From contig NZ_JAIVAI010000006.1 of the NCBI RefSeq assembly GCF_020171525.1, positions 1 through 64,000 of the forward strand: DNA of 64,000 bases. Direction: 5' to 3'. Both the position numbers and the translations under genes were made by a program. The notes under the pieces were generated by a model. The model was not told the origin of the DNA. It worked only from the letters and a program-made list of their open reading frames with translations, and made no database searches. Every line of letters begins with the position of its first letter. The stretch's first letter is position 1. Positions 5,737 to 64,000 of the stretch are shown one piece after another. This DNA is from Halobacillus yeomjeoni. Lineage in GTDB: Bacteria > Bacillota > Bacilli > Bacillales > Halobacillaceae.

Positions 5737-6822
5737 TCAACCGACCACTTCTTTCTTCACTTCCGTGAGCGATGGGTGACGATAAAGTGGGAAGTAACTT
5801 TCCACCCCTCGTAACCCTGCCGTCAACTCCTGATAGATTTCTTTGTTATGAATTCTTTTTCCGATATGAAAAGGCCGGTCTCCATATTTGTTGAAACGTT
5901 TTTTGAATTTGAACAGACTATCCTCTCCGGCATATCCGCCCCCCAGGTGCAGATACTTTCTGCCATTCGACTTCGCCCATTGAGCTGCATAATCGATGAC
6001 GAAATTGTTCGGGCATAACTTCAAGAATTCAGGATTGGATCCGACTAGATCGTAGTGTACAAAATCCCCGTAACTCATGAAAATCCCTGAGAAAGCGACC
6101 TCATTTTGGTAGACGACTTCTAGAATTTCTGCATGTTCACTTAGTAAATCTGCTTTATTTTGAAAGTACTCTTCTGAAAAATAATAGTAGCTGCTTGCCT
6201 GCAGTTTCTGCATCGTTCCGCGATAGATTCTTTGAAAATCTGCGTGGTCACTGAGTGGTTTATGAATGACTTTCAATCCTTTTTTCTTCGCCTTTCGAAT
6301 ACGGTTCCGATTGGGGCTGTCATAATGGCTCCATACATCCTCCCAATCGAGGGTCAAATCGATATGGATGGTATCCCTGAGGTGAATGGATTCTACATCG
6401 GTGTAATCTTTATGATTTTCAAGGAGCGGATGGAAGCGTAAGAACTCGGTCACGATCCCTTCCTTCTGACAAAACTGTTCGAAGATGGGGGTGAATCTTT
6501 CGAATAACTGCCGCCTGCTTTCACCTTCATCAGCGTTCGTTATCGGCCCCCCATATCCATAGGGTGTAGTGAGATCATATAAGTCTCCGTATCGTTCCAG
6601 TTTGTTATTCAGGAAAGGAATCTGATTAAGCGCTCTTTTTAGAAAAGGATAATAGATGAAACTATCTCCTTCCTCATAGACCAATAGAAATGCTTTCCCT
6701 TCCCCGTTTTTCTCATAGAGTTCCGCGTATTCCGGAGTGAAGTAAACATCCTTCCCGGGTACTCTCTCCAAATAGTGATGCCAGCTTTCCTTTTCAGTCG
6801 TATCATAAATATGAATAGTCAT
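5737..6822 (-). CDS. FemAB/GNAT-like acyl or aminoacyl transferase
   Basis: 361 residues from the ATG at 6822, chosen because AAGGAGGT lies 7 nt upstream; a frame-extended start at 6849 has no ribosome binding site. The C-terminal half (HYDLVGSNPEF, NNFVIDYAAQWAK, LHLGGGY, LFKFKKRFN) is typical of FemAB-related, duplicated GNAT-fold proteins in exopolysaccharide clusters. The gene overlaps the sugar-phosphate transferase by 20 bp and precedes the aminotransferase. In the related Pgl and Eps pathways an acetyltransferase acts on the amino sugar. No EpsM/PglD-type enzyme is seen here, so this protein may modify that amino group. The substrate is inferred. Confidence 0.75.
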   Translation of the reverse strand: MTIHIYDTTEKESWHHYLERVPGKDVYFTPEYAELYEKNGEGKAFLLVYEEGDSFIYYPFLKRALNQIPFLNNKLERYGDLYDLTTPYGYGGPITNADEGESRRQLFERFTPIFEQFCQKEGIVTEFLRFHPLLENHKDYTDVESIHLRDTIHIDLTLDWEDVWSHYDSPNRNRIRKAKKKGLKVIHKPLSDHADFQRIYRGTMQKLQASSYYYFSEEYFQNKADLLSEHAEILEVVYQNEVAFSGIFMSYGDFVHYDLVGSNPEFLKLCPNNFVIDYAAQWAKSNGRKYLHLGGGYAGEDSLFKFKKRFNKYGDRPFHIGKRIHNKEIYQELTAGLRGVESYFPLYRHPSLTEVKKEVVG

Positions 6823-7456
6823 GAACTTGACCTCCTTCAGCAGGCTCATTCTTCTGCAATTCCAGTTTCCGTTCTACATCGAAATCCAGCATGCTTTGGC
6901 CAGGCACGTCTTCAATGTCCTCTCTTTTCAATACGAGTTTTATCGTTTTGAAAATAATCGCGAGGTCGAGCCAGAAGGATTGATTTTCTACATAATAGAC
7001 ATCCAGTTCAAACCTTCTTTTCCAATTCACATAATTACGTCCATGAACCTGTGCATAACCGGTGATCCCCGGTCGTACATGATGGCGTTTTGCTTCCTGC
7101 TCCGTGTAATAAGGCAGGTACCTCGGCAGGAGAGGTCTCGGTCCGATGAGACTCATCTCGCCTTTCAATACGTTGATCAATTGAGGGAATTCATCCAGGC
7201 TCATTTTCCTGATCCATTTGCCCACCTTCGTCATCCTCATTTCATCCGGCAGCAGCTCCCCCTCATCATCCAGTTCATTGGTCATCGTTCTGAATTTAAA
7301 GATTCGGAACGGCTTACCCTGATAGCCGATCCGCTCCTGTGTATAGATGACCGGCGCCCCCAGCTTCCACCTCACTACGATGGCGGTTCCTGCGATAATC
7401 ACGGAGAACAAAGTAAGAATAAGCAGGCTGACAATCACGTCCAAGAGTCGTTTCAT
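6803..7456 (-). CDS. Initiating sugar-phosphate transferase (EpsL/PglC-like)
   Basis: 217 residues. The protein has the single N-terminal membrane hairpin (about residues 5-28) of the small monotopic transferases, then the catalytic core KFRTM, LDEFPQLINVLKGEMSLIGPRP and RPGITGYAQV. The family transfers a sugar-1-phosphate from a UDP-sugar to undecaprenyl phosphate at the inner membrane face, the first step in repeat-unit assembly. It is first in its operon (7456 to 1693). A 428-bp leader upstream contains a SinR-box palindrome and a GC-rich repeat. The donor is probably the diamino sugar made by the next genes. Confidence 0.9.
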   Translation of the reverse strand: MKRLLDVIVSLLILTLFSVIIAGTAIVVRWKLGAPVIYTQERIGYQGKPFRIFKFRTMTNELDDEGELLPDEMRMTKVGKWIRKMSLDEFPQLINVLKGEMSLIGPRPLLPRYLPYYTEQEAKRHHVRPGITGYAQVHGRNYVNWKRRFELDVYYVENQSFWLDLAIIFKTIKLVLKREDIEDVPGQSMLDFDVERKLELQKNEPAEGGQVHDYSYL

Positions 7457-7692
7457 CTCCTCACTCCTTTGTCACATGCTCTTAAATTATTTTGTTTCGA
7501 GATTTATGATGGGTGGATGGCGGATTTAGAAAACGGATCGCTTTGAAAAGCCACCTTCACGTTTATGTCAGATTCGAAACACCCTTTGAAAAGCTTTTAT
7601 AATGCAGGTTAGAACTGGTTATGCATGATGCAGTATTCCTTTCTAATCACCCTTTTCTCAAGCAGGATGATATTGAAAAATCAATTAAGGTA

Positions 7693-7813
7693 AGGGGAGC
7701 CGGGGAAGGGTGAGACTCCCGCGGGAGAAGGAAACAGGAAAGATCCCGCAGGGCTTACCCGAGGAAGCTTGCCGGTTCCCCCGCAGGAAAGCGAATCCTT
7801 CCCCGGCTCCCCT
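7693..7813. repeat. GC-rich intergenic repeat with 17-bp self-complementary ends
   Basis: Arms 7693-7709 (AGGGGAGCCGGGGAAGG) and 7797-7813 are perfectly complementary. The core carries ACTCCCGCGGGAG, ATCCCGCAGGG, CGAGGAAGCTTGCC and CCGCAGGAAAGCGA. The core recurs at 35726-35845 and 40836-40958 in the opposite orientation, with different but again paired arms. Confidence 0.85.
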
Positions 7814-7847
7814 ATCCCTCCCCCTGAACCCTTTATAAAACACATAA

Positions 7848-7863
7848 GTTCTTAATAAAGAAC
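7848..7863. promoter_or_regulatory. SinR-box palindrome
   Basis: GTTCTTAATAAAGAAC, a near-perfect 16-bp palindrome built of two SinR-type half-sites, lies 22 bp after the polymerase stop codon and 392 bp before the sugar-transferase start. The minus-strand T-tract and AAACTAAG flank resemble the box at 1405. Confidence 0.55.
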
Positions 7864-7884
7864 CTTAGTTTAAAAAAATAATTA

Positions 7885-9180
7885 CTAACCTGTATTCCTA
7901 TCCTCTTTCCCCTTCATCATCTGATCGATCACGAACACAGCAAGCATGGCTACTAAGTATACCAGTTTGTATCGGTGCCTCATCGATGTTCCGGCATTAT
8001 CCACTCCGATTCCGAAGATGAAAACTGTTGTCAAAATCATGACCAACAGCCCCAGTAAAATCGGCTGGTTCATTACCTGATCCCTGAACTTGATAACCAC
8101 GAGGATGAGAAGAACGAAATAAATCAATCCGTCGTAAGAAAACGATGCTGCATCTGAAAATCCCCTCCACCCCCACGGTAAAGGCGATGTAAGAAAGTAA
8201 AACATTTTGATCGGTGCGTACAGAACCACTTCCCATAAGGTATCGATATTGAGACTGGTCAAGTATGCAGAGCCTCCAGCATCTGTACTGTCGTTCCCGG
8301 AAGCGATTTTGTATAAGTCTTGGCTGTTTTCCATATAAAAGGCAAATTTCCCGAGGAACGGAATGTTTTTCATGGACACCACACTCATGGATAAAGCCGC
8401 CATAACAATCACTAGAAACGGAACGACCGAGCGGACGGAAAAGACCAGCTTTTTCTCTTCATGATTATAAAAAATGAAAAGGAACGCATAACCGACTAGA
8501 ATTCCGATAACGCCTGAGTGAAGGACGGAACCGATGAGTACAATCGCGACCGCCGCTCCCATATAGAAGAGACGTAAACTCTGATACCATTGCATAAAAC
8601 AATAGAACGACAGGACGACCAGCATACTGATCAAGGCTTCTCTCAAGAGGATGCTTGAAAAGATGAGAGCTGATGGAAAGAAGGCCATTCCTGCTACACA
8701 GTAATTTTGTACGACAGACTTGATGTTCCATTCCTTTAGAATTTTCAGGACGAGGAGCAGTGTGGTCATCCCGATCAGTACATTAAGGTAATGGCCCATG
8801 ATTCGATCTTCCGGGCCAAGAAAGAAGAGTACACCGAGCACTTTCGAATATAATCCCCCATAAATATCAGAAGTGAGGAGCGACAAATCACCGGCAATCT
8901 GCATACCAGAGGCTAAATAACCTTCTGTATCCGTTCCACTGTGGGGCAGTTCGTATATATGCCTTCCATAAATATCCCATAGTAGAAAGCACATCCTTGT
9001 GAGGAATCCGGCAATCAGCAGAAGACTGAGCGTCATTTGATAACGTGTCAGGATGAGCAGCATTACGATCGAATGCAAGGTAATGAAAAGGATTGCCAGG
9101 GATGGTTCCTCAAAAAACAAAGGCTTGATAAGAAAATAAAAGAACAGACCTCCTGCGAATGTCCCCCATATCCATGTCAC
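7885..9180 (-). CDS. Wzy-type polysaccharide polymerase (O-antigen ligase/polymerase-like membrane protein)
   Basis: 431 residues, very hydrophobic, with roughly ten or more predicted membrane segments spread along the length and a longer extracytoplasmic loop around residues 60-110. Sequence conservation in this family is low, so the call rests on topology, length and position: its ATG overlaps the flippase stop codon by 4 bp (ATGA), at the end of the chain-regulator/kinase/phosphatase/flippase operon. Such proteins join repeat units on the outer membrane face of the cytoplasmic membrane. Confidence 0.7.
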   Translation of the reverse strand: MTWIWGTFAGGLFFYFLIKPLFFEEPSLAILFITLHSIVMLLILTRYQMTLSLLLIAGFLTRMCFLLWDIYGRHIYELPHSGTDTEGYLASGMQIAGDLSLLTSDIYGGLYSKVLGVLFFLGPEDRIMGHYLNVLIGMTTLLLVLKILKEWNIKSVVQNYCVAGMAFFPSALIFSSILLREALISMLVVLSFYCFMQWYQSLRLFYMGAAVAIVLIGSVLHSGVIGILVGYAFLFIFYNHEEKKLVFSVRSVVPFLVIVMAALSMSVVSMKNIPFLGKFAFYMENSQDLYKIASGNDSTDAGGSAYLTSLNIDTLWEVVLYAPIKMFYFLTSPLPWGWRGFSDAASFSYDGLIYFVLLILVVIKFRDQVMNQPILLGLLVMILTTVFIFGIGVDNAGTSMRHRYKLVYLVAMLAVFVIDQMMKGKEDRNTG

Positions 9181-51086: not shown

Positions 51087-51866
51087 TTAAGAACGGTTCA
51101 CCAAATAAACAGATACTCCAAGAACCCTAGCCGCTTGACGCTGTGACAATCCCTCAATCTCCTTTACTTTCCTCAAAATCATATCCCGTTCTTTCCCTGG
51201 GAGGGACTTCACCTGCGGAATCGCATAACTCCCATGAACAGCAATAATTTCACGTCTCGCTTCCTCATCTGTCAACCTCCTCCGATTCCTGCCCCATGCA
51301 CTCAAACACTCCTCTTCGCACTGCCGGGAATGGAAGTCCTTCATCCGTTTTCGCGCCTCTTTTTCGTCTTTTGAAAATAAAGAGAGTATGAACCACGAAG
51401 AGAGAAGGTCTGGTGGGTAGACCACCTTTCCATAAAAACTCCCACAGCTGCTCCACCGATAATCTTCCGGTTTCAGAATAAGTCCTGATTTGACCGGGTT
51501 CATGTGGATATAGCGGACGACTGTCAATAGATAGCCGTCTGTTTCCACCTCCTCGCTCTTGAACCGGTCCTGGAACAGGTGACCGTTTGTCCCATAGGTC
51601 CAGTTGTAATAAGAAGCATAGCTAATCCCCAGCCGTTTCATCACTTCTGATACTTGTGGTATTTTTTCTTTAAGAAGAAAGTGCACATGGTTATCCATCA
51701 AACACCAAACTACAACCTGCGTATCTGTTTCATGTATATATCGTTTCAGTGTATCTAAAAAACGAAATCGGTCTTCCTGTTTATGACAAATTTCCTGGCG
51801 ATTTGCTCCTCGAAGGATCACATGGTAGATTCCACTCTTACTCTTTTTCCTCGGACGTCTTGGCAT
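51087..51866 (-). CDS. Y1 (HUH) transposase of the RAYT/IS200-like family, with C-terminal HTH
   Basis: 259 residues. The Y1 core has the metal-binding HUH motif in CLMDNHVHFLL, and a Tyr-bearing helix region follows around GYLLTVVRYIHMNPVKSG. The C-terminal 60 residues add an HTH (LSQRQAARVLGVSVYLVNRS), as in DnaA-like extended RAYTs. These enzymes nick single-stranded DNA at repeat palindromes and are often domesticated. It overlaps the end of the ComM remnant by 29 bp (51838-51866). A second RAYT lies at 59214. No flanking inverted repeats were found for this copy. Confidence 0.88.
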   Translation of the reverse strand: MPRRPRKKSKSGIYHVILRGANRQEICHKQEDRFRFLDTLKRYIHETDTQVVVWCLMDNHVHFLLKEKIPQVSEVMKRLGISYASYYNWTYGTNGHLFQDRFKSEEVETDGYLLTVVRYIHMNPVKSGLILKPEDYRWSSCGSFYGKVVYPPDLLSSWFILSLFSKDEKEARKRMKDFHSRQCEEECLSAWGRNRRRLTDEEARREIIAVHGSYAIPQVKSLPGKERDMILRKVKEIEGLSQRQAARVLGVSVYLVNRS

Positions 51867-52476
51867 AGGTCTCCCTGTCTTTCTTTTCCGAAAGTAAAAG
51901 TTCCCGTTGGTTGGTCAACCTCCCTGAAACCTTCCGATAGCTGAGAGCTTCTTCTAATGCTAGGTCACTTATGCGTTCTTCTTCGTTCAAGTCGGAAATC
52001 GTTCTTGCCACCCGAATCATTTTGATCTGTACCCGGTTACTCAAAGCTTCTTTTGCCGAAATGGTTTGGAGGAATTCTTGTTGTTTTGATGTAAGTGGAC
52101 TGGATTGGATAAGTTCTTTAAAGGCTACACGAGCATTTGAAATCGACCGTCCATATCGGGCGAATTGAATCTTTCTCGCTTTCATTACCCTCATTCGAAT
52201 GGTTTCTGATGTCTCCTCGCCCGACATACTACGGTTCAATTTTTCCGGAACAAGGGTTAGTAGTATGTTGATACGATCGAGTATTGGTCCAGACACTCGG
52301 TTCTGATAGGAACGAATCTGTTGAGTACTGCATGTGCAATATTTATCTATAGCTCCCGCATATCCACATGGACATGGATTCATCTCAGCTAACAAGATGA
52401 ATTTCGCCGGGTATGTAACTGTCGAATGAGCACGGCTGATTGTGACTTGACCATTTTCAAGAGGCTGTCTCAGCAT
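51838..52476 (-). pseudogene. ComM/YifB C-terminal remnant
   Basis: About 212 codons matching only the C-terminal half of ComM/YifB (compare the full gene at 57728-59254): MLRQPLENGQVTISRA, NPCPCGYAG, the CTCS zinc-like motif, GPILDRINILL and the C-terminal Mg-chelatase subdomain. The N-terminal half and Walker A are missing; homology stops at about 52476-52490, after which unrelated AT-rich sequence follows. It is diverged from the full copy, so it is an old remnant rather than a recent duplicate. It lies directly upstream of a RAYT gene. Confidence 0.85.
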
Positions 52477-52581
52477 CGCCGTGAGGATGGATGGATAAAA
52501 AATTAATATGCGGATTGATTAACTTTATTATGCAGAACCTATCATTATTTAACATTACTAAGTTGATTGTCCTTCTTAAAC

Positions 52582-52712: not shown

Positions 52713-55700
52713 TTATTCTAGCTCATCCTTTAATCTATAAAATCTTTTTTGACCAATTTTCAATTCTTCCATTATTTTTTTATACGGTGTGTTTCCTGAG
52801 AGTAATTTACTGATTTTCTTTTTAAGTTCCTTTTCCTCATTTTCTAGCTTTTTATTTTTCTTACATTTTTCATCATATTGATTTAAATAAGTATTTAAAT
52901 GATCAATTCTCATCTCTTTTGGTTTTCCATCTATCTTGACCCAAACTGTTTCCCTTGGAGTGTTTGCACTGTATTGTTTAGGGCTCCGTTCATTTCGGTC
53001 TTTCATCCATATTTGATTTAATACTTTCGGGTTAATATCATATAAACTGTTCTCTTTAACTTCGTATTTTTCTTCTTCTCTCATTTGTTTTACATAATCA
53101 ACAAACCGCTCCTGATTGCACTCACTACAGAGCCAGTAATGTTCTGACCGAGCCTTTGTATCAACTCGTTGTTTATAAGAGCCATGTGTTTTACAGATCC
53201 AATACACACTTTCCTCACTTGACTTCGTAAGGTTATTATAATCAATACCCATTTCAGCATTCTTTTCATAATCATAAAATTCCGATAAATTATGATGTGT
53301 CATAAAGATATGTTCTATCGGTTTTTCAGGTAGCGATAGCTTATGCAGATATATATAATGATAAATCGTCTTTATTGATCTGTTTAATATTTCAGAGATC
53401 TCCTCAATACTATAATCTTCATTTAGTAGATTTTGAATCACTTCTGGAGAAATTTTTTGAACCTTTGAAATTCTGTTCTCTTTAAGAAGCTTCTCCTTAT
53501 ATTGCTGAAACTCACTATGCGAAAAGCCCATCTTCTGCTTTATTTCCAAAAAGCTCTGGCCGTAATCCCTAAGCTTTTTAAACTGTAATTCCATTTCACT
53601 ATCAAAGTCAAATGGTTGATCTTGAATTTGGTATATTCCGCTCTCAATATATTTTTCATAAACATTATTAATTCTCTTATCCGACACTTTACAATCGTCT
53701 TTAATTTTCTGCTTAGTATGTCCTTTTAAAAAACCATCTATTATTTCTTTCTCTTTTTTCTTAGTTTCTTTATCTCTTTTTTCTTTTCTCTCCAGGCTAT
53801 CTATAATGTTACGAACAGTTGTCGTTCTTTCTTCCCCATTCCACATTACAATAATCTCCTCACTGGAGTTTGCCTTTAAATATTCTGGCCTCATTTCTCC
53901 ATTTTTATCGTACATCCATATATGCAAAATGTCAGGGTGAGTTTCAGCTATGCTATCTGATACCACTTCATATTTAGGTTTATTTTTAAAATAATCAGTT
54001 TTTATCTTTGACATATACGAAGACATACATGATTTACAGCCAATAATCTGTTGAGAATTACACATCGTTTTAATAGGACGTTCATAACTCTCCTTATTAC
54101 ACGTTAAACACTTCCAAAAGACCTTGGTGTTAGACCCTGCTGTAAAAAATTCTGGCCTAAACCCTTCTTTCTTATTCTTTTCGTCGGCCCAATGTTCTTC
54201 TAAGTATGGATGTGTTACAAAAAAATGATTTTCCTTTGGATAAAAAAGATGTTTTTGAATTTCAAAGGCATCTTTCTTAATATCAATTTCATCAAATCGG
54301 TTTTTCACACTTAATAATTCAGGAAAATTACTGCACAAATAATCAAAACTTTTTAAGATACATTCCTTTAAAGAATTAAAATATTCTATTGTTCCAAACC
54401 CACTTTTTGTATAGTGAATATACTGAGTTTCTGTTTCCTTGAATTCTAATCTATCTGACTCCCGAATAATAATCAGATCGATCCCTCTCTTAGTAATTTT
54501 ATGTTTCTTTACGAGATCCGACTCTTCTTTATCCTTGTGATAATATTCACCGTGATACTCAATACCAAATTTAAAATATGGTAAAAAAACATCTATTTCT
54601 AATACATGCGCTTTAGGAATCTCACGATTTAAATCAAAACAAAGCTCCGTTTTTTTTGAAACCAACTTTTTAAAATAGTAGTAAATTGCATGCTGAGGAA
54701 AAGAAACATTTTTGCCTTTCATACAGGTCGGGCAAGCATATCGTTTAACTCGATTTATTGGTGTTGTGTACCATTCCTCATTCTCGCAAACAGGGCAAGT
54801 AAAAAAATACTTTTTATTAACCCCGTGTGAAATCTTAAAAGGATTTACTTCCCCATTTTTTTCGTCACTCCAAGAAATAGCCACCTCAGGATAGCTGTAC
54901 CCAAATGAATTGTGTATACAAATTCTTTGAAGATTACAATATGGACATTTATTTTCATTTAAAGTTTTATTAGAAATTTCTGTATCATAAAAAGGATGAA
55001 GCTCCTCTTCAATACAATTAAACACGGCGATCTGGCTACTACCCTTTGAAAATTTTTCCGGTTCAATGCCTAGCTTTAAATTTAATTCAATGTTCCATTC
55101 TTTTTGAATCAAGTCTGAATTTAAATCTAGAGGTTCAACTTTTTTGTTATTTCGCTTCTTTAGTTCTATCTTTTTCATAAATTCTCGTTCTGTTATTTCT
55201 TTTTCCTTCTCAAATATTTCTTCCCAATTATGAGGTACACCTGCAGAAAATTCATCCCACACGCTATTATAAAAACTTTCCATTTCATCATTTAAAATGG
55301 GATTCCTATTTTTCCTCTTTGTTTTAAAGTGAGGTTTACATGAGTCACAGTAACGAAGCACTTTATAATTTTGAACTTTACATATTTTGCTTTCTTTTTT
55401 ACACCCTGCACAAATAAAAGAAACCTCTTCTTCTGCCCCAATCCCAACATGAAAAGGGGTAAGTTCACCATTTTGTTTGATATCCCAATACTGTGTAAAA
55501 TCTTTTTTTAGATAACCAAAAGAGTTAGTAATACATCTTTTATAATTACCAGCACAATATGGGCAGCCTTGTGTTTCATGAAATAGCTGATAAATTTTCT
55601 TTATATAAGGAGGGTGTGTATTGTTGTTTGGACAAATGAAGATTGCAGACTGCTGGGATCCACTACTATATCTATCAGGAAATATCTCTAATTGACTGTT

Positions 55701-55928
55701 ACTTTCCCAGTCCCAAATTTCATTAACTAATTCTCGGTGGGTCTCAATTATAGGAGTATCCGTTTGCCTAGATTTTAAATTATCCCCTTTATTGAGTAAA
55801 TCTATCAAATAACTTTCCACTATTTTCTTTTCTTGTTTGATATAACTATCCCATTTTATACCTTCTTGATTTTCTAAATAATCTTTAAAAAGATTTCTAT
55901 ATAATTGATCTAATTCCGCTAACTTCAT
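52713..55928 (-). CDS. Large multi-zinc-ribbon protein with Vsr/PD-(D/E)XK-like nuclease and HTH modules
   Basis: 1071 residues, AT-rich gene. About six zinc-ribbon repeats of the DUF4379 kind occur at residues 63-125, 135-197, 270-331, 340-402, 570-634 and 875-937. Two Cys-less versions lie at about 660-710 and 960-1015. Between repeats 4 and 5 is a nuclease-like domain (about 405-535) with LEIDVFLP (Glu444, Asp446), FGIEYHGEYYH (Glu457) and LIIIRESD, as in Vsr/PD-(D/E)XK folds. HTH-like helices occur at about 725-865 and 1035-1071. It would bind and cut DNA; anti-phage or homing roles are inferred. It lies 67 bp after a 126-residue partner gene. Confidence 0.75.
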   Translation of the reverse strand: MKLAELDQLYRNLFKDYLENQEGIKWDSYIKQEKKIVESYLIDLLNKGDNLKSRQTDTPIIETHRELVNEIWDWESNSQLEIFPDRYSSGSQQSAIFICPNNNTHPPYIKKIYQLFHETQGCPYCAGNYKRCITNSFGYLKKDFTQYWDIKQNGELTPFHVGIGAEEEVSFICAGCKKESKICKVQNYKVLRYCDSCKPHFKTKRKNRNPILNDEMESFYNSVWDEFSAGVPHNWEEIFEKEKEITEREFMKKIELKKRNNKKVEPLDLNSDLIQKEWNIELNLKLGIEPEKFSKGSSQIAVFNCIEEELHPFYDTEISNKTLNENKCPYCNLQRICIHNSFGYSYPEVAISWSDEKNGEVNPFKISHGVNKKYFFTCPVCENEEWYTTPINRVKRYACPTCMKGKNVSFPQHAIYYYFKKLVSKKTELCFDLNREIPKAHVLEIDVFLPYFKFGIEYHGEYYHKDKEESDLVKKHKITKRGIDLIIIRESDRLEFKETETQYIHYTKSGFGTIEYFNSLKECILKSFDYLCSNFPELLSVKNRFDEIDIKKDAFEIQKHLFYPKENHFFVTHPYLEEHWADEKNKKEGFRPEFFTAGSNTKVFWKCLTCNKESYERPIKTMCNSQQIIGCKSCMSSYMSKIKTDYFKNKPKYEVVSDSIAETHPDILHIWMYDKNGEMRPEYLKANSSEEIIVMWNGEERTTTVRNIIDSLERKEKRDKETKKKEKEIIDGFLKGHTKQKIKDDCKVSDKRINNVYEKYIESGIYQIQDQPFDFDSEMELQFKKLRDYGQSFLEIKQKMGFSHSEFQQYKEKLLKENRISKVQKISPEVIQNLLNEDYSIEEISEILNRSIKTIYHYIYLHKLSLPEKPIEHIFMTHHNLSEFYDYEKNAEMGIDYNNLTKSSEESVYWICKTHGSYKQRVDTKARSEHYWLCSECNQERFVDYVKQMREEEKYEVKENSLYDINPKVLNQIWMKDRNERSPKQYSANTPRETVWVKIDGKPKEMRIDHLNTYLNQYDEKCKKNKKLENEEKELKKKISKLLSGNTPYKKIMEELKIGQKRFYRLKDELE

Positions 55929-57488: not shown

Positions 57489-57514
57489 AGTGCCTGACCC
57501 CCATTGCATTAAAG
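57489..57514 (+). repeat. Left terminal inverted repeat of the ComM-RAYT unit
   Basis: The 26 bp include GTGCCTGACCCCCAT and TTAAAG. 22 of 26 positions match the reverse complement of 60133-60158. GTGCCTGACCCC is the kind of short GC-rich repeat often found beside Firmicute RAYT genes. Confidence 0.8.
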
Positions 57515-57616
57515 TTTTAAGTCATAAAACGAAGTAACGACCCTAGAAAACTATTTACAGAATCTTTCCATTACAATTTCTTTGCTATACTTAGTAACGT
57601 TAAAGGCCTTACATAG

Positions 57617-57654
57617 AAAAAAAAGAGCGGTCTACCTTAAAAGATAGACCGCTC
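57617..57654 (-). terminator. Intrinsic terminator after ComM/YifB
   Basis: Minus-strand stem GAGCGGTCTA/TAGACCGCTC (57625-57634 with 57645-57654) is followed by eight T. Confidence 0.92.
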
Positions 57655-57727
57655 CTTTATACTTATTGAAAAATCTTCGCAACGTCTACAACCTTCTGCG
57701 ATTAATACACCATAAAATCATTTCATT

Positions 57728-59254
57728 CTATCTATACACATTATCAACTAGAGTCACATGACCAACACGAAATTGAATTGCTTCATTTAAAGCTGCTATG
57801 GAAATTCCTTCTTCACCATTCAAATCTGCTATTATTCTCGCCGTTCGGAGAATATTCACTTGAACACGGTTACTATAGTGATATTTCATGCTCCATTCTT
57901 GAAGTCTTTCTTTTAGCTCTTCAAGAATGGGAGAATTATCGAGTAAACGATCATAAGAAACTTGACTATTCAAAATTTCTTCGTTGTATCGCTCATATTG
58001 CATTTTCCTTGCATCAGTTATTTTTGCTTTCATATCCACCGATGTCCATTTCTCATATTTTTCTTCTAAGTTTACTGGAGTCAAACGTAGCATAATGTCG
58101 ATCCGATCCAATATGGGTCCTGATAATCGCTGTTGGTAACTATGGATTTGTTTCGTTGTACATGTGCAATATTTATCTTTAGCTCCGTGATAACCACATG
58201 GACAGGGGTTTGTCGCTCCAATCAAAATGAAGCGCGCCGGGTATGTAACCGTTCCACTAACACGACTGATTGTAACCTTTCCAGTTTCCAAAGGTTGGCG
58301 CAGCATATCTAACGTCTTTTTAGGAAATTCGGCCATTTCATCTAGAAAAAGCCCACCGCCGTGAGCGAGTAAGACCTCTCCTGGACGAGGAGTCGCACCT
58401 CCACCAATTAAAGAAACAGAAGATGCAGAATGATGCGGATGTCGAAATGGAGCAACACCTGTAATAGTTTTTGTTTCATGAGCTAGCTGATATAAACTGT
58501 AGCTATCAATCATAGTTCTTTCCGTCATTTCAGGCAATATAGATGGAAAAGCTGTAGCCAACATACTCTTTCCACATCCAGGAGGACCGCTCATTAACAC
58601 ATGATGACCGCCTGTTGCTGCAACCATGAGTCCCCGCTTCGCTACTGCATGACCAACAATCTCGGAAAAATCGAGTGAATAACCATGCTTTTCAAAGGGA
58701 GTTTCATTTACTGTGGAAGGTACGAAAGACCATTTCAATTGTCCTGTTCCATTTAAATGATCCATGACCTCTTGAAGGTGATGGACTGGTTTCAGAAAAG
58801 AAATATCCTGAAGATAATCCAAGCCTCCCATTTCAGCAGGAACATATACAGAAGAAAACCCCAGTGCTTTGGCCTGCATTACAGCAGCTAACATTCCTTC
58901 TGTTTCATGGATGGATCCATCCAGTGACAACGTTCCTACAAAGGCAGTACTTGGCTTGACATCTCCAACCAATTGATGCGTTTCTTTTAACATAGCAATC
59001 GCCATAGCTAAATCTGCCATTGGACCATTCTTTTTCTGTTCAGTCGGAGACAAAAGAAGTATCATGTGTCTTCCCGAAACATCAGCACCCACAGAATGAA
59101 GAGCTCCTTTCAAACGATCTTTCGATTCTTTGATGGATGCATCTGGGAGACCAATGACAGATATCTGTTCCACTCCGCTCAACGACTGGGCCTCCGCTCC
59201 AACGACATACCCTTCAAGACCCTTGAGGCCGATACTCTTCACAATAGTTGTCAA
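57728..59254 (-). CDS. comM: ComM/YifB family AAA+ ATPase (Mg-chelatase-like)
   Basis: 508 residues from TTG 59254, which has GGGAGGAG upstream; the frame is open to 59314. In order: an N-terminal Lon-protease-like domain (VIGLPDASIKESKDRLKGAL), Walker A (GPPGCGKS, about residue 214), Walker B (GGGLFLDEMAEF), the zinc-like CPCGYHG...CTCTTKQ segment, and the C-terminal Mg_chelatase lid. ComM is a branch-migration helicase in natural transformation. Here the gene overlaps a RAYT gene by 41 bp and lies inside inverted repeats, so it may be a mobile version rather than the core comM. A truncated paralogue is at 51838. Confidence 0.9.
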   Translation of the reverse strand: MTTIVKSIGLKGLEGYVVGAEAQSLSGVEQISVIGLPDASIKESKDRLKGALHSVGADVSGRHMILLLSPTEQKKNGPMADLAMAIAMLKETHQLVGDVKPSTAFVGTLSLDGSIHETEGMLAAVMQAKALGFSSVYVPAEMGGLDYLQDISFLKPVHHLQEVMDHLNGTGQLKWSFVPSTVNETPFEKHGYSLDFSEIVGHAVAKRGLMVAATGGHHVLMSGPPGCGKSMLATAFPSILPEMTERTMIDSYSLYQLAHETKTITGVAPFRHPHHSASSVSLIGGGATPRPGEVLLAHGGGLFLDEMAEFPKKTLDMLRQPLETGKVTISRVSGTVTYPARFILIGATNPCPCGYHGAKDKYCTCTTKQIHSYQQRLSGPILDRIDIMLRLTPVNLEEKYEKWTSVDMKAKITDARKMQYERYNEEILNSQVSYDRLLDNSPILEELKERLQEWSMKYHYSNRVQVNILRTARIIADLNGEEGISIAALNEAIQFRVGHVTLVDNVYR

Positions 59255-59798
59255 ATGCCACTCCTCCCTTTTCAATGATATATGCTTCATAACGCTTTCT
59301 TTTAGGTTCTTCAAAACAATCTAGTAAAGCTTTGGTATAAACAATTGATCCTTCACCCTCACTTAAGTACTGTCTGTAACTACTCCATACATAACGATCA
59401 GGAAGCAAACACATCCTCGCTGTAACAGGATTGAGGTGGATGTATTTACTCGCTGCCAAAAAATATGGTCGTGTCTGAATCATCTTGGAATAATAGCGTC
59501 CCTGAAAAACATGACCATGGAGTTTATGGCGTTTATTGAAATGCTTTGCATAACGGAATTGGATGAATTTCATTATGTCACCCGGGGGATGTTGAAGAAC
59601 TTCAATAAGGAGATGGACGTGATTAGTCATTAAGCAATATGCGTGGAGGATAAAAGGGGTTTCTTCCTTGCAGAGCTGGATAAAATCCAAATAAGCCTTG
59701 AAATCAAGATCATCATAAAATAAATCTGTCCCACGATTTCCTCTAGCAGTAATGTGAAACCGAGCTCCAGGAAACCAGGATCGAGGTTTTCTAGACAT
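59214..59798 (-). CDS. Y1 (HUH) transposase of the RAYT family
   Basis: 194 residues from ATG 59798 (AGGAGGT 7 nt upstream). HUH motif in CLMTNHVHLLIE, with the Tyr helix region around RPYFLAASKYIHLNPVTARM. It is shorter than the copy at 51087 and lacks the C-terminal HTH. The gene precedes and overlaps comM, and the pair is bounded by the repeats at 57489 and 60133, presumably its substrates. Confidence 0.9.
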   Translation of the reverse strand: MSRKPRSWFPGARFHITARGNRGTDLFYDDLDFKAYLDFIQLCKEETPFILHAYCLMTNHVHLLIEVLQHPPGDIMKFIQFRYAKHFNKRHKLHGHVFQGRYYSKMIQTRPYFLAASKYIHLNPVTARMCLLPDRYVWSSYRQYLSEGEGSIVYTKALLDCFEEPKRKRYEAYIIEKGGVAFDNYCEEYRPQGS

Positions 59799-59891
59799 AA
59801 CCTCCACCTCCTATTTGGATTGAGTAAAGTATAATAAAACTTAATTAAATTATCGAACATATATATTTTAATTTTGAATGCTATCAGTGTA

Positions 59892-60077
59892 TTAAAAAAG
59901 CATTGATTCTTTCCCGATAGGGGCAATTCCATTCCATCTCTTATTACCAAATTTAAATTTTCTATAGATGAGTTGGAGAATAGGCCGTTTCCATAAGCGA
60001 AGTAACCTTTCATAAAAAGCAGCCCAACTTCTCATTCCTATAAATCCCAAACTATTATCATGCTCAATAGTGAGCAT
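59892..60077 (-). CDS. Possible small open frame between RAYT and the right inverted repeat
   Basis: 61 codons with coding-like composition (IGMRSWAAFYERLLRLWKRPI...KFGNKRWNG) but no convincing ribosome site. Its 5' end includes a short CATGCTCA...TGAGCATG hairpin. It may be a remnant of a larger gene. No function can be given. Confidence 0.3.
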   Translation of the reverse strand: MLTIEHDNSLGFIGMRSWAAFYERLLRLWKRPILQLIYRKFKFGNKRWNGIAPIGKESMLF

Positions 60078-60132
60078 GATGTTTTAAAGAAAGGCCTTAT
60101 TACTGAAAAGCCTCTCCTTATTTACTTTATCG

Positions 60133-60158
60133 CTTTAACGTTATGGGGGTCAGGCACC
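60133..60158 (-). repeat. Right terminal inverted repeat of the ComM-RAYT unit
   Basis: Reverse complement matches 57489-57514 at 22 of 26 positions. Its GGTGCCTGA end encodes the last two residues and stop codon of the gene at 60150. Confidence 0.8.
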
Positions 60159-60521
60159 GATTTTGATTGCCGCAAGCATTTGTTCAACAAAAGGCGCTAC
60201 CCTTTTTAATTGGCGTACCTCGGCTGAGTCTGATTCCAGTTCATAGCAAAACCCCAGTATTTTGTCCCTTAGGTCAATCACAATAAAGGGACAAAATACA
60301 CCTGTTGACTCTGCATTCTTCTGCATCTTAATTAATTCACTTTTTATCATGGAGTAGCTCCTGTTTATTTCCTCAAAAACCTGAACTTCTCCTAGATTTG
60401 TTGAACCCTCGCTAATGATCAGCTGCTGCAAGTATTGCTTTATATCAACAGGTGGACTTACATGATTAAAATGTTGACTAACCAATTTAGCAACCGATAT
60501 TGGAGTAATCTTATTCATCAT
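60150..60521 (-). pseudogene. Hypothetical protein, probably truncated by the mobile unit
   Basis: About 123 codons (MNKITPISVAKLVSQHFNHVSPPVDIKQYL...). The N-terminal part faintly resembles the start of IrrE/ImmA-type proteins, but no metalloprotease motif follows. The last codons, Gly-Ala-stop, are contributed by the terminal repeat GGTGCCTGA, so the native C-terminus is lost. The start ATG (60518 or 60521) overlaps the stop codon of the gene upstream. Function unknown. Confidence 0.5.
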
Positions 60522-61038
60522 TCTCATCTTCATCGGTATCAATTGCCTTTAGCGCCAAATGTTGCTTGGCCCTTTTTACAACCAACTTTTTGATTTGCTC
60601 TAACATTTTAATTTCATCCTGACCTAGGCCTTCAACCTCATCGGTTTCTAACTTTCCGATTTCATCTATAAAATTGGATAAAACCTCTTTTATCGGCACC
60701 TTTTTAGTCGGAAAAGCTTTATGGTATGCTTCTTCAACATCTAGCGTACCATCGATAATACCCATAACTTGAGTATTCTTATTTCCTTCCAAAAGCTTAA
60801 CAAATTTCCTCATGTGATTGGGATTCGAAATCACAGGATCATTATCAGCATCCTTTTCCTTATCCCCAATTACTAATTTATAAAAATCTTTTAGATTTTC
60901 CTTGTTGGTAAACGAAAACTCTTCTTCTTTCCAACCTAACCAATTATCCTTAATAGCACGCTTACCGATTGCTTCTTCCATAAGAGAAAAAAGGTAGGTT
61001 TTATCTTTTGCATACTTACCATATTCTTCATCGTTCAT
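60511..61038 (-). CDS. Acidic protein of unknown function, possibly 5'-truncated
   Basis: 175 residues from ATG 61038; acidic, with an extreme Asp/Glu C-terminus (IDTDEDENDE). Translation in the same frame is open for about 21 more codons upstream (…LCERVASKYYRTFKALKQL) and reads like real protein with no start codon, so the 5' end may be lost. The middle (SNPNHMRKFVKLL...GIIDGTLDVEEAYHKAF) recalls C-terminal parts of ParB-like accessory proteins, but I cannot support that call. It is coupled to the gene at 60150. Confidence 0.5.
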   Translation of the reverse strand: MNDEEYGKYAKDKTYLFSLMEEAIGKRAIKDNWLGWKEEEFSFTNKENLKDFYKLVIGDKEKDADNDPVISNPNHMRKFVKLLEGNKNTQVMGIIDGTLDVEEAYHKAFPTKKVPIKEVLSNFIDEIGKLETDEVEGLGQDEIKMLEQIKKLVVKRAKQHLALKAIDTDEDENDE

Positions 61039-61484: not shown

Positions 61485-62510
61485 TTACTTCACCTTATAA
61501 TAATCCACATACCAATCAACAAATTTTTGGAGTCCATCCTCTAAGGTAGTTTTTGGTTGAAAATTTATAGCCTCATTCAACAATTCGATAGAAGCATATG
61601 TAGTTGGTACATCCCCTGGTTTTATAGGTTCAAAACTCTTATCAAATTCCACTTCTTTCTCTAAAGCATTACTTAAAGCTTTTTCTAATGCAGATATAAA
61701 TCCCATTAATTTTTCAGGATTGTTATTACCAATATTATATACTTTATGTTGAACATCTGTATTAGGTGGTTTATTTATAAGTCGGTTAATCCCTTCTACA
61801 ATGTCATCAATATAAGTAAAGTCTCTATAAAGATCCTGTTCAAAATTTCCATTATTAAATATTTTTATTGGTTTACCATCAAAGTATTTATTTGTAAACC
61901 CAAAGTAAGCCATATCTGGACGCCCCATAGGACCATAGACAGTAAAGAACCTAAGTCCTGTAGTAGGAATATCATAAAGGTGACTATAAGTATGTGCCAT
62001 TAATTCATTGGATTTTTTTGAAGCAGCATATAATGATACAGGAGTATCTACAAAATCACTTTCTTCAAACGGGACTTTTTTATTAGCCCCATAAACAGAA
62101 CTAGATGATGCATATAGCAAATGATTAACTGAATGGTATCTGCATGCTTCAAGTATGTTATAAAAACCTATTATGTTACTTTTAATATAAGTGTCAGGGT
62201 TCTCAATTGAATACCTAACCCCAGCTTGAGCTGCAAGATTAATTACTATATTCGGCTTATATTCCTTAAACGCATTCATTAACATACCCTTGTCAGATAT
62301 ATCACCTTTTTTAAAGGTAAATTGGTCATACGGTATAAGCTTCTCCAAGCGAGAATGTTTAAGAGATACATCATAATAATCATTTATATTATCAATGCCA
62401 ACCACAATACATCCCTGTTCCAATAATTTTTCAGCTAAGTGATAACCAATGAAGCCAGCTACACCAGTAATTAAATATATTTTACTAGGATCAAGATTTT
62501 TGTAATTCAA
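61485..62510 (-). CDS. UDP-glucuronate 4-epimerase (CapI-like)
   Basis: 341 residues, an extended SDR. NAD site TGVAGFIGYHLAEKL, NDYYDVSLKHSRLEKL as in CapI-type epimerases, catalytic SSSSVYG and YAASKKSNE (Tyr-x3-Lys), and TGLRFFTVYGPMGRPDMA. It would convert UDP-glucuronate from the Ugd encoded just upstream to UDP-galacturonate for a capsule. Start is TTG 62510 with AAGGAGT upstream; it overlaps ugd by 20 bp. The gene is AT-rich compared with the eps cluster. Confidence 0.9.
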   Translation of the reverse strand: MNYKNLDPSKIYLITGVAGFIGYHLAEKLLEQGCIVVGIDNINDYYDVSLKHSRLEKLIPYDQFTFKKGDISDKGMLMNAFKEYKPNIVINLAAQAGVRYSIENPDTYIKSNIIGFYNILEACRYHSVNHLLYASSSSVYGANKKVPFEESDFVDTPVSLYAASKKSNELMAHTYSHLYDIPTTGLRFFTVYGPMGRPDMAYFGFTNKYFDGKPIKIFNNGNFEQDLYRDFTYIDDIVEGINRLINKPPNTDVQHKVYNIGNNNPEKLMGFISALEKALSNALEKEVEFDKSFEPIKPGDVPTTYASIELLNEAINFQPKTTLEDGLQKFVDWYVDYYKVK

Positions 62511-63858
62511 CGTCTTTAGACTCCTTAACTTTTATTGTTGCAGGCTCTCTTCCTATTGAGTGATATTCTACCCCAACTTCTAACATATCTTCAACTCTGT
62601 ATACATTTCTACCATCAAACAATAAAGGGGTTCTCATCAACTGTTTATAAGTTTTAGGAGCTACAGACTTGATTTCTCCCCAATCTGTAAAGATAAAACA
62701 TACATTAGCTCCTTTTAAAGCCTGTTCAATAGTGGAAGCATATTTTATACTACCGTTACCATTTTTTCCTTCCGGATATACATTAGAAAAATTTTCGGCA
62801 CCTATAGGGTCATAAGCATAAATATCTGCTCCCTGGTCCAATAATAAAGGAATGTTTTCAAGTGATGGAGCCTCTCTTAAGTCGTCAGTTCCAGGTTTAA
62901 ACGTTAAGCCTAAAACTGCAACTTTAAGTCCATCAAAAGTAATTAATCTATTATTAGCTTTTTTGTATAACATTGTTTTTTGTACTTTGTTTACGTCAAT
63001 AGCTGCTCTAACTGTGTTTAGGTGATAACCATTTTGTCGAGATAAATACTCTAAGGCTTTTGTATCCTTAGGAAAGCATGAACCTCCAAATCCTATCCCC
63101 GCATTTAAAAATTTACTTCCTATTCGCTCATCATAACTCATTCCTTCAGCTACATCCTCAATATCAGCACCCACTAACTCACAAAGGTTAGCAATGTCAT
63201 TCATATAAGATATTTTAAGTGCTAGAAAGTCATTTGAAGCATATTTAATCATTTCAGCCGATCTTCTATTTACTGAAACAATTGGTAAATTGAATGGCTT
63301 ATATATTTCAGTTAATATTTCTTCCGCCCATTCACTTTCCGTTCCTATAATTATGCGTTGAGCTTTAAAAGTATCATGAACAGCAGATCCTTGTGCTAAA
63401 AATTCAGGGTTTGAAGCTACCTCTACTTTCACATCATTAACTAGGAAATCTTGAATAAATTGTTCAACTTTATCGTTTGTACCAACAGGTACAGTAGACT
63501 TTACAATTACTAAACAATCTTTTTCTACCGACTCAGCAATTTGCCTGGCAACTGTTGCAATGTGTGATAAATTTGCAGAACCATCCGGTTGCTCAGGAGT
63601 ACCAACACCAATAAAGATTGCGTCTGCATCCCTATAAGCCTCTTTATAATTCGTTGTGTAATCTATTTTATTTAAAGAATAATTTTTTTGCATTAATTCT
63701 TCCAAGTCAGTCTCAAAAATTGGTGATATACCATCTTTCATTAATTTTACTTTCTCCTCGTCGATATCAACACAGGTTACTTGATGGCCAATTTCTGCAA
63801 AACATACACCTGCTACTAAGCCTACATAACCTGTACCTGCTACTGCTATCTTATACAT
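62491..63858 (-). CDS. ugd: UDP-glucose 6-dehydrogenase
   Basis: 455 residues from ATG 63858 (AAGGAT upstream; the open frame extends to 63939 but MYKIAVAGTGYVGL is the canonical start). Motifs are GTGYVGLVAGVC, the NPEFLAQGSAV loop, catalytic Cys in FGGSCFPKDTKAL, and FKPGTDDLREAPS in the C-terminal domain. It oxidises UDP-glucose to UDP-glucuronate with two NAD+. With the epimerase downstream it forms a uronic-acid branch, likely the edge of another polysaccharide locus that extends past the window. Confidence 0.95.
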   Translation of the reverse strand: MYKIAVAGTGYVGLVAGVCFAEIGHQVTCVDIDEEKVKLMKDGISPIFETDLEELMQKNYSLNKIDYTTNYKEAYRDADAIFIGVGTPEQPDGSANLSHIATVARQIAESVEKDCLVIVKSTVPVGTNDKVEQFIQDFLVNDVKVEVASNPEFLAQGSAVHDTFKAQRIIIGTESEWAEEILTEIYKPFNLPIVSVNRRSAEMIKYASNDFLALKISYMNDIANLCELVGADIEDVAEGMSYDERIGSKFLNAGIGFGGSCFPKDTKALEYLSRQNGYHLNTVRAAIDVNKVQKTMLYKKANNRLITFDGLKVAVLGLTFKPGTDDLREAPSLENIPLLLDQGADIYAYDPIGAENFSNVYPEGKNGNGSIKYASTIEQALKGANVCFIFTDWGEIKSVAPKTYKQLMRTPLLFDGRNVYRVEDMLEVGVEYHSIGREPATIKVKESKDVELQKS

Positions 63859-64000
63859 TCTAACCATCCTTCTAATTTTATTTAAGTACCTCATAACTTC
63901 ACTTTTAATTAAATAAAATATGCTCTTTGAACATCTCAAACTAGTTATTTTACTTCATATTAAAATTGTTTATATAATATAGTTGTGTATCGTAGAATAA
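63859..64000. other. Upstream region of ugd
   Basis: AT-rich sequence without a further gene in the window. A -10-like TATAAT occurs around 63975 in plus-strand reading, but no confident promoter for ugd could be placed. Confidence 0.3.

Follow-up and report, generated by a model that had tools for sequence, protein, structure and literature searches.

A RAYT-type transposase gene recurrently paired with a comM gene among REP-like palindromes in Halobacillus yeomjeoni and other Bacillota

The 64,000-nt stretch of Halobacillus yeomjeoni contig NZ_JAIVAI010000006.1 analysed here (the window; coordinates are positions within it unless a locus is named) contains a gene for a RAYT-type Y1/HUH transposase (RAYT or Y1 gene) and a comM/yifB gene, which encodes a ComM-type AAA+ protein. 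Both genes lie on the minus strand between two inverted repeat arms (Table 1). Their reading frames overlap by 41 bp, and the start of comM is best placed at the TTG at 59254, behind GGAGGAG, within the 3' end of the Y1 gene. The arms are 88% complementary over 25 nt and are separated by 2618 nt. The 26-nt version reported by an initial annotation of the window is confirmed as well, with 22 of 26 positions matching when counted by eye. That annotation had also stated that the repeats enclose two overlapping genes, a full-length comM and a Y1 transposase gene, and that the right repeat encodes the final Gly-Ala-stop of the neighbouring gene. Both statements hold, the latter for the open reading frame (ORF) at 60150-60542. 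A second comM-Y1 locus, which the initial annotation missed, lies 6 kb from the main pair. Its gene order is reversed, with the Y1 gene directly downstream of comM, its comM (also delimited as 51934-52491) is truncated N-terminally, and its Y1 protein is divergent from that of the main pair, with 33% identity. No ComM-like match above 30 bits is detected in the own genome besides these two window copies. A separate core comM of the host, for which a search had been suggested, is thus rejected, the only other copy being the truncated one near a Y1 gene.

Table 1. Features of the RAYT-comM locus and of the second comM-Y1 locus in the window
Feature	Position	Strand	Description
Left arm	57490..57514	+	Half-unit of 50-bp REP/TIR palindrome (GTGCCTGACCCCCATTGCATTAAAG)
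Terminator-like hairpin	57621..57658	-	17 pairs and T tract; 3' of comM, inside left arm
comM/yifB	57728..59254	-	508 aa; Lon-like (ChlI), AAA+ Mg-chelatase and C-terminal domains
RAYT-type Y1/HUH transposase	59214..59807	-	197 aa; motifs NHVH, YIHLNP
Right arm	60133..60157	-	Half-unit of 50-bp REP/TIR palindrome; points towards RAYT gene
Unknown neighbour gene	60150..60542	-	Terminal Gly-Ala-stop codons within right arm; no Pfam match
Second comM	51838..52491	-	C-terminal part only (profile positions 310-499)
Second Y1 transposase	51087..51866	-	259 aa; C-terminal helix-turn-helix (HTH); overlaps second comM
REP, repetitive extragenic palindrome; TIR, terminal inverted repeat.

The window ComM matches TIGR00368 over its full length (positions 6-499) with 395.8 bits in a profile search, above the cut-off of 362.4 bits, and stays below the cut-off of the equivalog model PRK09862 (278.6 versus 530 bits). 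The nearest solved structure is that of ComM (8RXD, 2.5e-75). The domain order of the window protein is the same as that of Gram-negative ComM/YifB (PMC11612176, PDB 8RXD), which is described in that paper as the hexameric branch-migration motor of Gram-negative natural transformation and as notably absent from Firmicutes. Unlike Gram-negative ComM, the gene analysed here is patchy in distribution and stands mostly beside a RAYT gene, and the activity of the window protein is predicted. The window Y1 matches PF01797 with an E-value of 3.7e-11 in a Pfam search, and its nearest solved structure by profile is that of TnpA-REP (4ER8, 1.6e-6). It scores 66.3 bits against the NCBIfam model REP_Tyr_transpos (NF047646) and does not reach the curated cut-off of 80, and is therefore a RAYT relative rather than an equivalog by that model. 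It contains N62, H63, V64 and H65, and YIHLNP, which fit the motifs NHVH and Y[IV]HLNP of TnpA-Y1 subclass 2.1. In a Y1 alignment of six rows, N62, H63, H65, Y122, N126 and P127 are invariant, and YIHLN is present in all rows except that of the second window Y1, which has YIHMN.

The locus shares features with several known systems. In the TIRtron/TIRYT elements (Di Nocera 2013, PMC3733652), a Y1 gene lies between inverted repeats that have the motif GGGGWSAS in common. The same arrangement is seen for the window Y1, and the repeats are also dispersed as singles, dimers and groups. The difference is that the available portion of that paper describes no second gene, whereas the window repeats enclose comM. 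With TnpA-Y1 subclass 2.1 (Quentin 2018, PMC6006769), the window Y1 shares NHVH and YIHLNP, and this subclass includes long relatives with a C-terminal HTH, such as the second window Y1. However, no REP-like sequences were found for the subclass in that paper, whereas REP-like palindromes surround part of the members analysed here. The main text of PMC6006769 contains no word beginning with 'chelatase' or 'ATPase'. The combination of an HUH/Y1 nuclease, a second gene and hairpin repeats is also found in IS200/IS605 (TnpA and TnpB). However, the second gene is ComM and not TnpB, the own genome contains two divergent copies and not many alike, and the motif Y---Q of IS200/IS605 (subclass 1.1) is absent, the corresponding motif of the window Y1 being YIHLNP. 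No paper linking RAYT and ComM was found in the open-licence literature, as judged by titles and the beginnings of abstracts.

The association of RAYT with comM is recurrent. A comM gene is present in 3 of 22 genomes of the own genus group (E up to 1e-20) and in 6 of 44 genomes of the family (E up to 1e-25). In all six family genomes, a RAYT gene lies directly upstream of comM, overlapping it or nearly so, and the RAYT proteins are 51-70% identical. An order-level sample of 159 genomes, in which loci were drawn by comM alone, contains 62 comM loci in 47 genomes. A RAYT-type Y1 gene lies no more than 1 kb from comM at 40 or more of the 62 loci, versus 0.16 expected, and at least 36 of the 47 genomes contain such a locus. 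Among the matches listed, the two genes are on the same strand in 40 of 40 Y1-comM pairs (p=1.8e-12), with RAYT upstream of comM 21 times and downstream 19 times. Three further pairs within 1 kb are found in fetched regions (L195, L206 and L210). A Y1 gene is present in 43 of the 47 genomes with comM versus 98 of 159 overall (p=2.5e-7). In a second set, the best 80 of 312 loci drawn by RAYT sequence alone, comM lies within 6 kb in 26 loci, 25 times directly adjacent, and these loci belong to Bacillaceae and Clostridia. Five family members are common to this set and the family genome set. These results support that RAYT and comM form a real, recurrent same-strand pair well beyond chance. comM is mostly accompanied by RAYT, and many RAYTs stand without comM. 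The comM counts of the order-level sample qualify the view that ComM is absent from Firmicutes. With respect to the initial annotation, which had regarded comM and RAYT as a plausible two-part transposition machine, the recurrent same-strand pair is upheld and the unit bounded by its own ends is not.

A comM tree was built from 60 proteins of at least 380 aa, with shorter ORFs and two duplicate loci left out; it mixes comM-selected and Y1-selected rows. The main clade contains 48 rows, 42 of them paired with Y1. When only its comM-selected rows (at least 380 aa) are considered, 27 of 31 have a Y1 gene within 700 bp by the authors' count on the tree. The second clade contains 12 rows, which are Clostridial genes (Y1-selected) and seven comM-selected Bacillales genes. 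The Y1-downstream state, counted against upstream and unpaired rows together, changes eight times on the tree, and seven of these changes are forced by well-supported branches. The sister comM genes of L171 and L198 are accompanied by a short Y1 upstream versus a long HTH-type Y1 downstream, which belong to different Y1 subfamilies. Because the arrangement changes on the comM tree and the Y1 genes of L171 and L198 come from different subfamilies, the pairing has been re-formed repeatedly and is not only inherited.

Other genes occupy a similar position beside RAYT. DprA and SSB are proteins of the natural transformation pathway, and DprA loads RecA on single strands. Ten of the 80 Y1-selected loci have a dprA gene adjoining RAYT or RAYT-comM, and six of the ten have the arrangement RAYT-comM-dprA, which is that of all six non-Bacillales RAYT-comM loci of the 80. 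Three Bacillales loci have it as well, L194 with a small ORF between comM and dprA; the other Bacillales arrangements are one comM-dprA-RAYT and three comM-dprA without RAYT. In four loci lacking comM (L073, L076, L077 and L084, at about 5800-7990), RAYT is followed by a second-type DprA, which in L076 matches PF02481 with 1.6e-61. The RAYT-DprA pair of L076 lies between 26-bp palindromes of the GTGCCTGACCCCC kind described below, one exact (GGGGGTCAGGCACGTGCCTGACCCCC) and one with a mismatch. Close palindrome variants enclose the pairs of L073 and L077, and one is seen upstream only in L084. RAYT-DprA is a sister module to RAYT-ComM. When DprA genes (PF02481) are counted in 13 genomes, one is found in the own genome and two in each of the other 12, and in 11 of these 12 the second DprA adjoins comM (seven genomes) or RAYT (four genomes). 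That the Bacillales comM-dprA loci represent the core competence locus is rejected, since two DprA genes are present in 12 of 12 such or related genomes. An ssb gene, identified by eye from its sequence and by clustering, overlaps RAYT in L206 (2590-3506) and adjoins a RAYT piece in L297 (6874-7452), and ssb is a possible third kind of RAYT partner. When the remaining neighbours on the same strand (up to 400 bp away in the 80-locus set) are clustered, no cluster exceeds six members. Each cluster with three or more members is confined to a single species group, and two of the two-member clusters combine different genera. In 60 further RAYT regions, 61 of 63 Y1 ORFs are without comM, dprA or ssb; a weak 644-aa 'comM' match (L295) was not taken as ComM. 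This result bears only on dprA and ssb and says little on comM, because the regions were picked for having no adjacent comM match.

The arms contain GGGGGTCAGGCAC, and GGGGTCAG in the window repeat fits GGGGWSAS. The 13-mer GTGCCTGACCCCC occurs exactly in the window only at both arms. With up to two mismatches it occurs four times in the window versus 0.54 expected, and four occurrences are reached in 0 of 100 shuffles. It is dispersed in 12 of 22 genus genomes, with 0 to 27 copies in each, and the reversed pattern has none. The dispersed form is often a palindrome of about 50 bp, GTGCCTGACCCCC-N24-GGGGGTCAGGCAC. The full palindrome from the own genome folds strongly (z -6.1), and the window arms alone are without notable folding (z -1.5 and 0.6). 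Joined end to end, the arms give a 50-nt palindrome with 43 of 50 positions identical to a dispersed REP. The window arms are half-units of the dispersed 50-bp palindrome and not unique transposon ends. A repeat unique to the module borders is ruled out by the dispersal across the genus genomes, and the candidate explanation that the arms are opposite halves of one split REP was rejected because an asymmetry test did not favour it, 1 of 12 REPs speaking for it, eight against it and three being equal. The shorter form GTGCCTG[AT]C, counted over 43 comM regions, occurs 64 times versus once for the reversed control. Its density is 2.6 times higher at distances up to 1 kb from the genes than at greater distances, a ratio that favours the near side because the near region omits the genes and the far region includes coding sequence.

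Flanking repeats were tested with the 99th percentile of cross-locus controls as threshold, for pairs with 600 bp on both sides only; some of the loci are close relatives. The flanks of the window pair give an inverted score of 35 versus a 99th percentile of 32. Flanking repeat pairs above threshold are found for 13 of the 57 RAYT-comM pairs tested and for 17 of the 53 RAYT-only genes. The assignment of the repeats to the RAYT system is supported in part, by the TIRtron motif and by their presence at other pairs. A unit bounded by its own ends is opposed by the free occurrence of the repeat in the genus genomes and by its absence on the comM side of the RAYT-comM loci of H. aidingensis and H. 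faecis.

Purifying selection acts on both genes. The ratio of nonsynonymous to synonymous substitution rates (dN/dS) is 0.08-0.14 for comM and 0.05-0.26 for Y1 in five species pairs each. The rows comparing the window with H. aidingensis are left out, the comM row being out of frame and the Y1 row being saturated in dS.

Mobility of the window copy is putative. In the three genus-group holders, the same conserved capsule/exopolysaccharide genes are found at a distance of 17 to 26 kb from the pair, which lies on the same side of them and on the same strand. The initial annotation had inferred that the pair is mobile and had named a fixed syntenic place in all relatives as an observation against it; the common position of the three holders comes near to such a place. 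The window neighbour gene at 60511-61038 is matched in none of the other members of the 22-genome genus group, and no empty site or target duplication was found for the window copy or for G147. Among same-genus comparisons, the repeats mark the start of one-sided homology in two of three. The modules of G078 and G147 share 94% identity, and a REP that is also found as a solitary repeat elsewhere marks the exact start of homology on the RAYT side; for the upstream flank of G147, G078 yields only short repeats, and G116 and G173 yield no match. In the G065/G107 comparison, a REP marks the exact start of the homology that precedes comM. A gene beyond the other side of the module is common to both members in G078/G147 (at about 0.6 and 2.8 kb) and in G065/G107, and each of these comparisons may therefore represent one place with a breakpoint at a REP. 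In G104/G164, the module is 87% identical, the flanks are unlike except for short repeats and one stretch found elsewhere, and no REP is seen at the module border. The Neobacillus niacini loci and the pair L065/L066 are syntenic. In G135, RAYT and three REPs lie directly upstream of comM-dprA, and the sister species G188 and G101 have 166 and 193 bp there. At the sequence level, the occupied site of L189 (10684-11498) contains RAYT and three GGGGACAGGCACC repeats between a conserved gene and comM-dprA, versus the empty site of L208 (10648-10813). Carriage of the pair by plasmids or phages was considered and rejected. ComM matches 52 plasmid and 28 phage records (E limits 1e-30 and 1e-20), all below 60% identity and with 38% as the best among the matches listed. 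The Y1 search, made against plasmids and not phages, gives six plasmids (limit 1e-20) with 38.6% as the best identity.

As a separate observation, comM loci tend to lie near surface polysaccharide genes. The gene ugd, the strongest of four markers tried, is present in 10 of 43 20-kb comM regions versus 0 of 40 random regions (p=0.0011), the latter drawn from only 10 of the genomes. The remaining markers give weaker contrasts, with an epimerase family in 14 versus 7, an S-layer type in 8 versus 2 and a flippase in 1 versus 0 of these regions. In the window, such a setting is seen at 61485-63939 and further to the right (L028).

On balance, the RAYT-ComM operon is probably a widespread accessory module of Bacillota, with a RAYT of TnpA-Y1 subclass 2.1 and of the 'TIRYT' type, which is located among REP/TIR palindromes of its own kind and whose two products function jointly. 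This explanation is preferred because the linkage is tight, on the same strand and repeatedly re-formed, because DprA and SSB provide parallels, because both genes are under purifying selection, and because REP/TIR palindromes are present at part of the borders. Single-stranded DNA is the substrate of TnpA-Y1 proteins, TnpA-REP among them, and their shared core leads one to expect that they cut and join it (PMC6006769). RAYT would recognise folded single strands of REP/TIR, cut them and rejoin them. The hexameric ComM motor would then extend the heteroduplex and drive the excised or copied single strand into a homologous or REP-bearing duplex, and in the sister modules the second DprA would load RecA for assimilation. 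The available discussion of the single-stranded substrate of RAYT centres on replication forks (PMC6006769). According to the mechanism proposed here, RAYT traffic would use recombination steps of natural transformation and not replication forks alone.

Several results weigh against joint function of RAYT and ComM. Among the 86 Y1 ORFs that the 80 Y1-selected loci contain, 55 lack a same-strand comM, dprA or ssb within 450 bp, and ComM is therefore not needed for the persistence of RAYT. Conversely, 22 of 62 comM loci have no Y1 gene within 1 kb among the matches listed, Y1 is directly beside comM in only three of the seven comM-selected rows of the second, dprA-linked clade, and the second DprA of G190 has neither RAYT nor comM beside it among the matches listed. 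No flanking repeat pair passes the test at 44 of 57 RAYT-comM pairs. comM is interrupted in four of six family genomes, which are draft assemblies. In the N. niacini group it decays while RAYT stays open: across the syntenic loci, comM is intact in L103, split into three pieces in L095 and largely deleted in L106, each time next to an open RAYT. The function of the pair is itself predicted from genome comparison.

A possible but less likely explanation, which ranks close behind the joint function proposed above, is that a domesticated RAYT together with ComM, DprA2 or SSB serves natural transformation, for example by cutting or joining incoming single strands, and that the host keeps the module for DNA uptake. 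The partners ComM, DprA2 and SSB all belong to the transformation pathway (for the role of ComM, see PMC11612176), dN/dS is low for both RAYT and comM, and domestication has been suggested for class 2 RAYTs (PMC6006769). This explanation is less compatible with a comM that is patchy and often decayed, and with the fact that each of the 12 genomes containing a second DprA retains another one besides it. It is unlikely that RAYT units simply insert near comM-dprA or in variable polysaccharide regions without any joint function. The gain of RAYT and REPs immediately upstream of comM that G135 shows in comparison with G188 and G101, and the excess of ugd near comM, would be expected from such insertion. 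However, the uniform strand of the listed pairs, the short overlaps of the RAYT and comM reading frames, and the origin from one pathway of all partners recurring across lineages argue against it.

Still more improbable is a classical two-gene transposon, as proposed in the initial annotation, in which the 25-bp inverted repeats are the true ends, the whole unit hops and ComM is part of the machinery. The arms do carry the TIRtron motif GGGGWSAS, and their likeness to the dispersed REP when joined is as expected if the latter is a deletion derivative. The 87% identical modules in unlike flanks of G104/G164, and the one-sided homology that starts exactly at a REP in G078/G147 and G065/G107, are also consistent with transposition. 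However, both members of each of the latter two comparisons have a gene in common beyond the opposite border of the module, the three genus-group holders have the same macro-position, the split-REP test is unfavourable, and neither an empty site nor a target duplication was found.

A broader proposal is made tentatively. Bacillota RAYTs may be one half of a dedicated machine for single-strand insertion, the other half of which (ComM, a second DprA and sometimes SSB) comes from transformation, and REPs, RAYTs and their neighbours may spread by homology-assisted transposition, possibly between cells via DNA uptake. If so, REP-bounded strands cut by RAYT would be driven into the chromosome by strand assimilation of the RecA type. 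The partner set of ComM and a second DprA, and rarely SSB, connects RAYT/REP activity with the recombination steps of transformation in a concrete and testable way.

Two protein-coding features near such pairs are also recorded. A family of 190-204-aa proteins is encoded beside RAYT-comM, with three copies in H. faecis (L026 4530-5102, 6403-7017 and 13694-14266) and one in H. aidingensis (L025 4263-4835), and one of these copies has a half-REP at a distance of about 200 bp. In the window, the region between both comM-Y1 loci (52713-55928) encodes a protein of 1071 aa, which contains six treble-clef zinc finger stretches of the DUF4379 type and also gives weak HTH-like matches.

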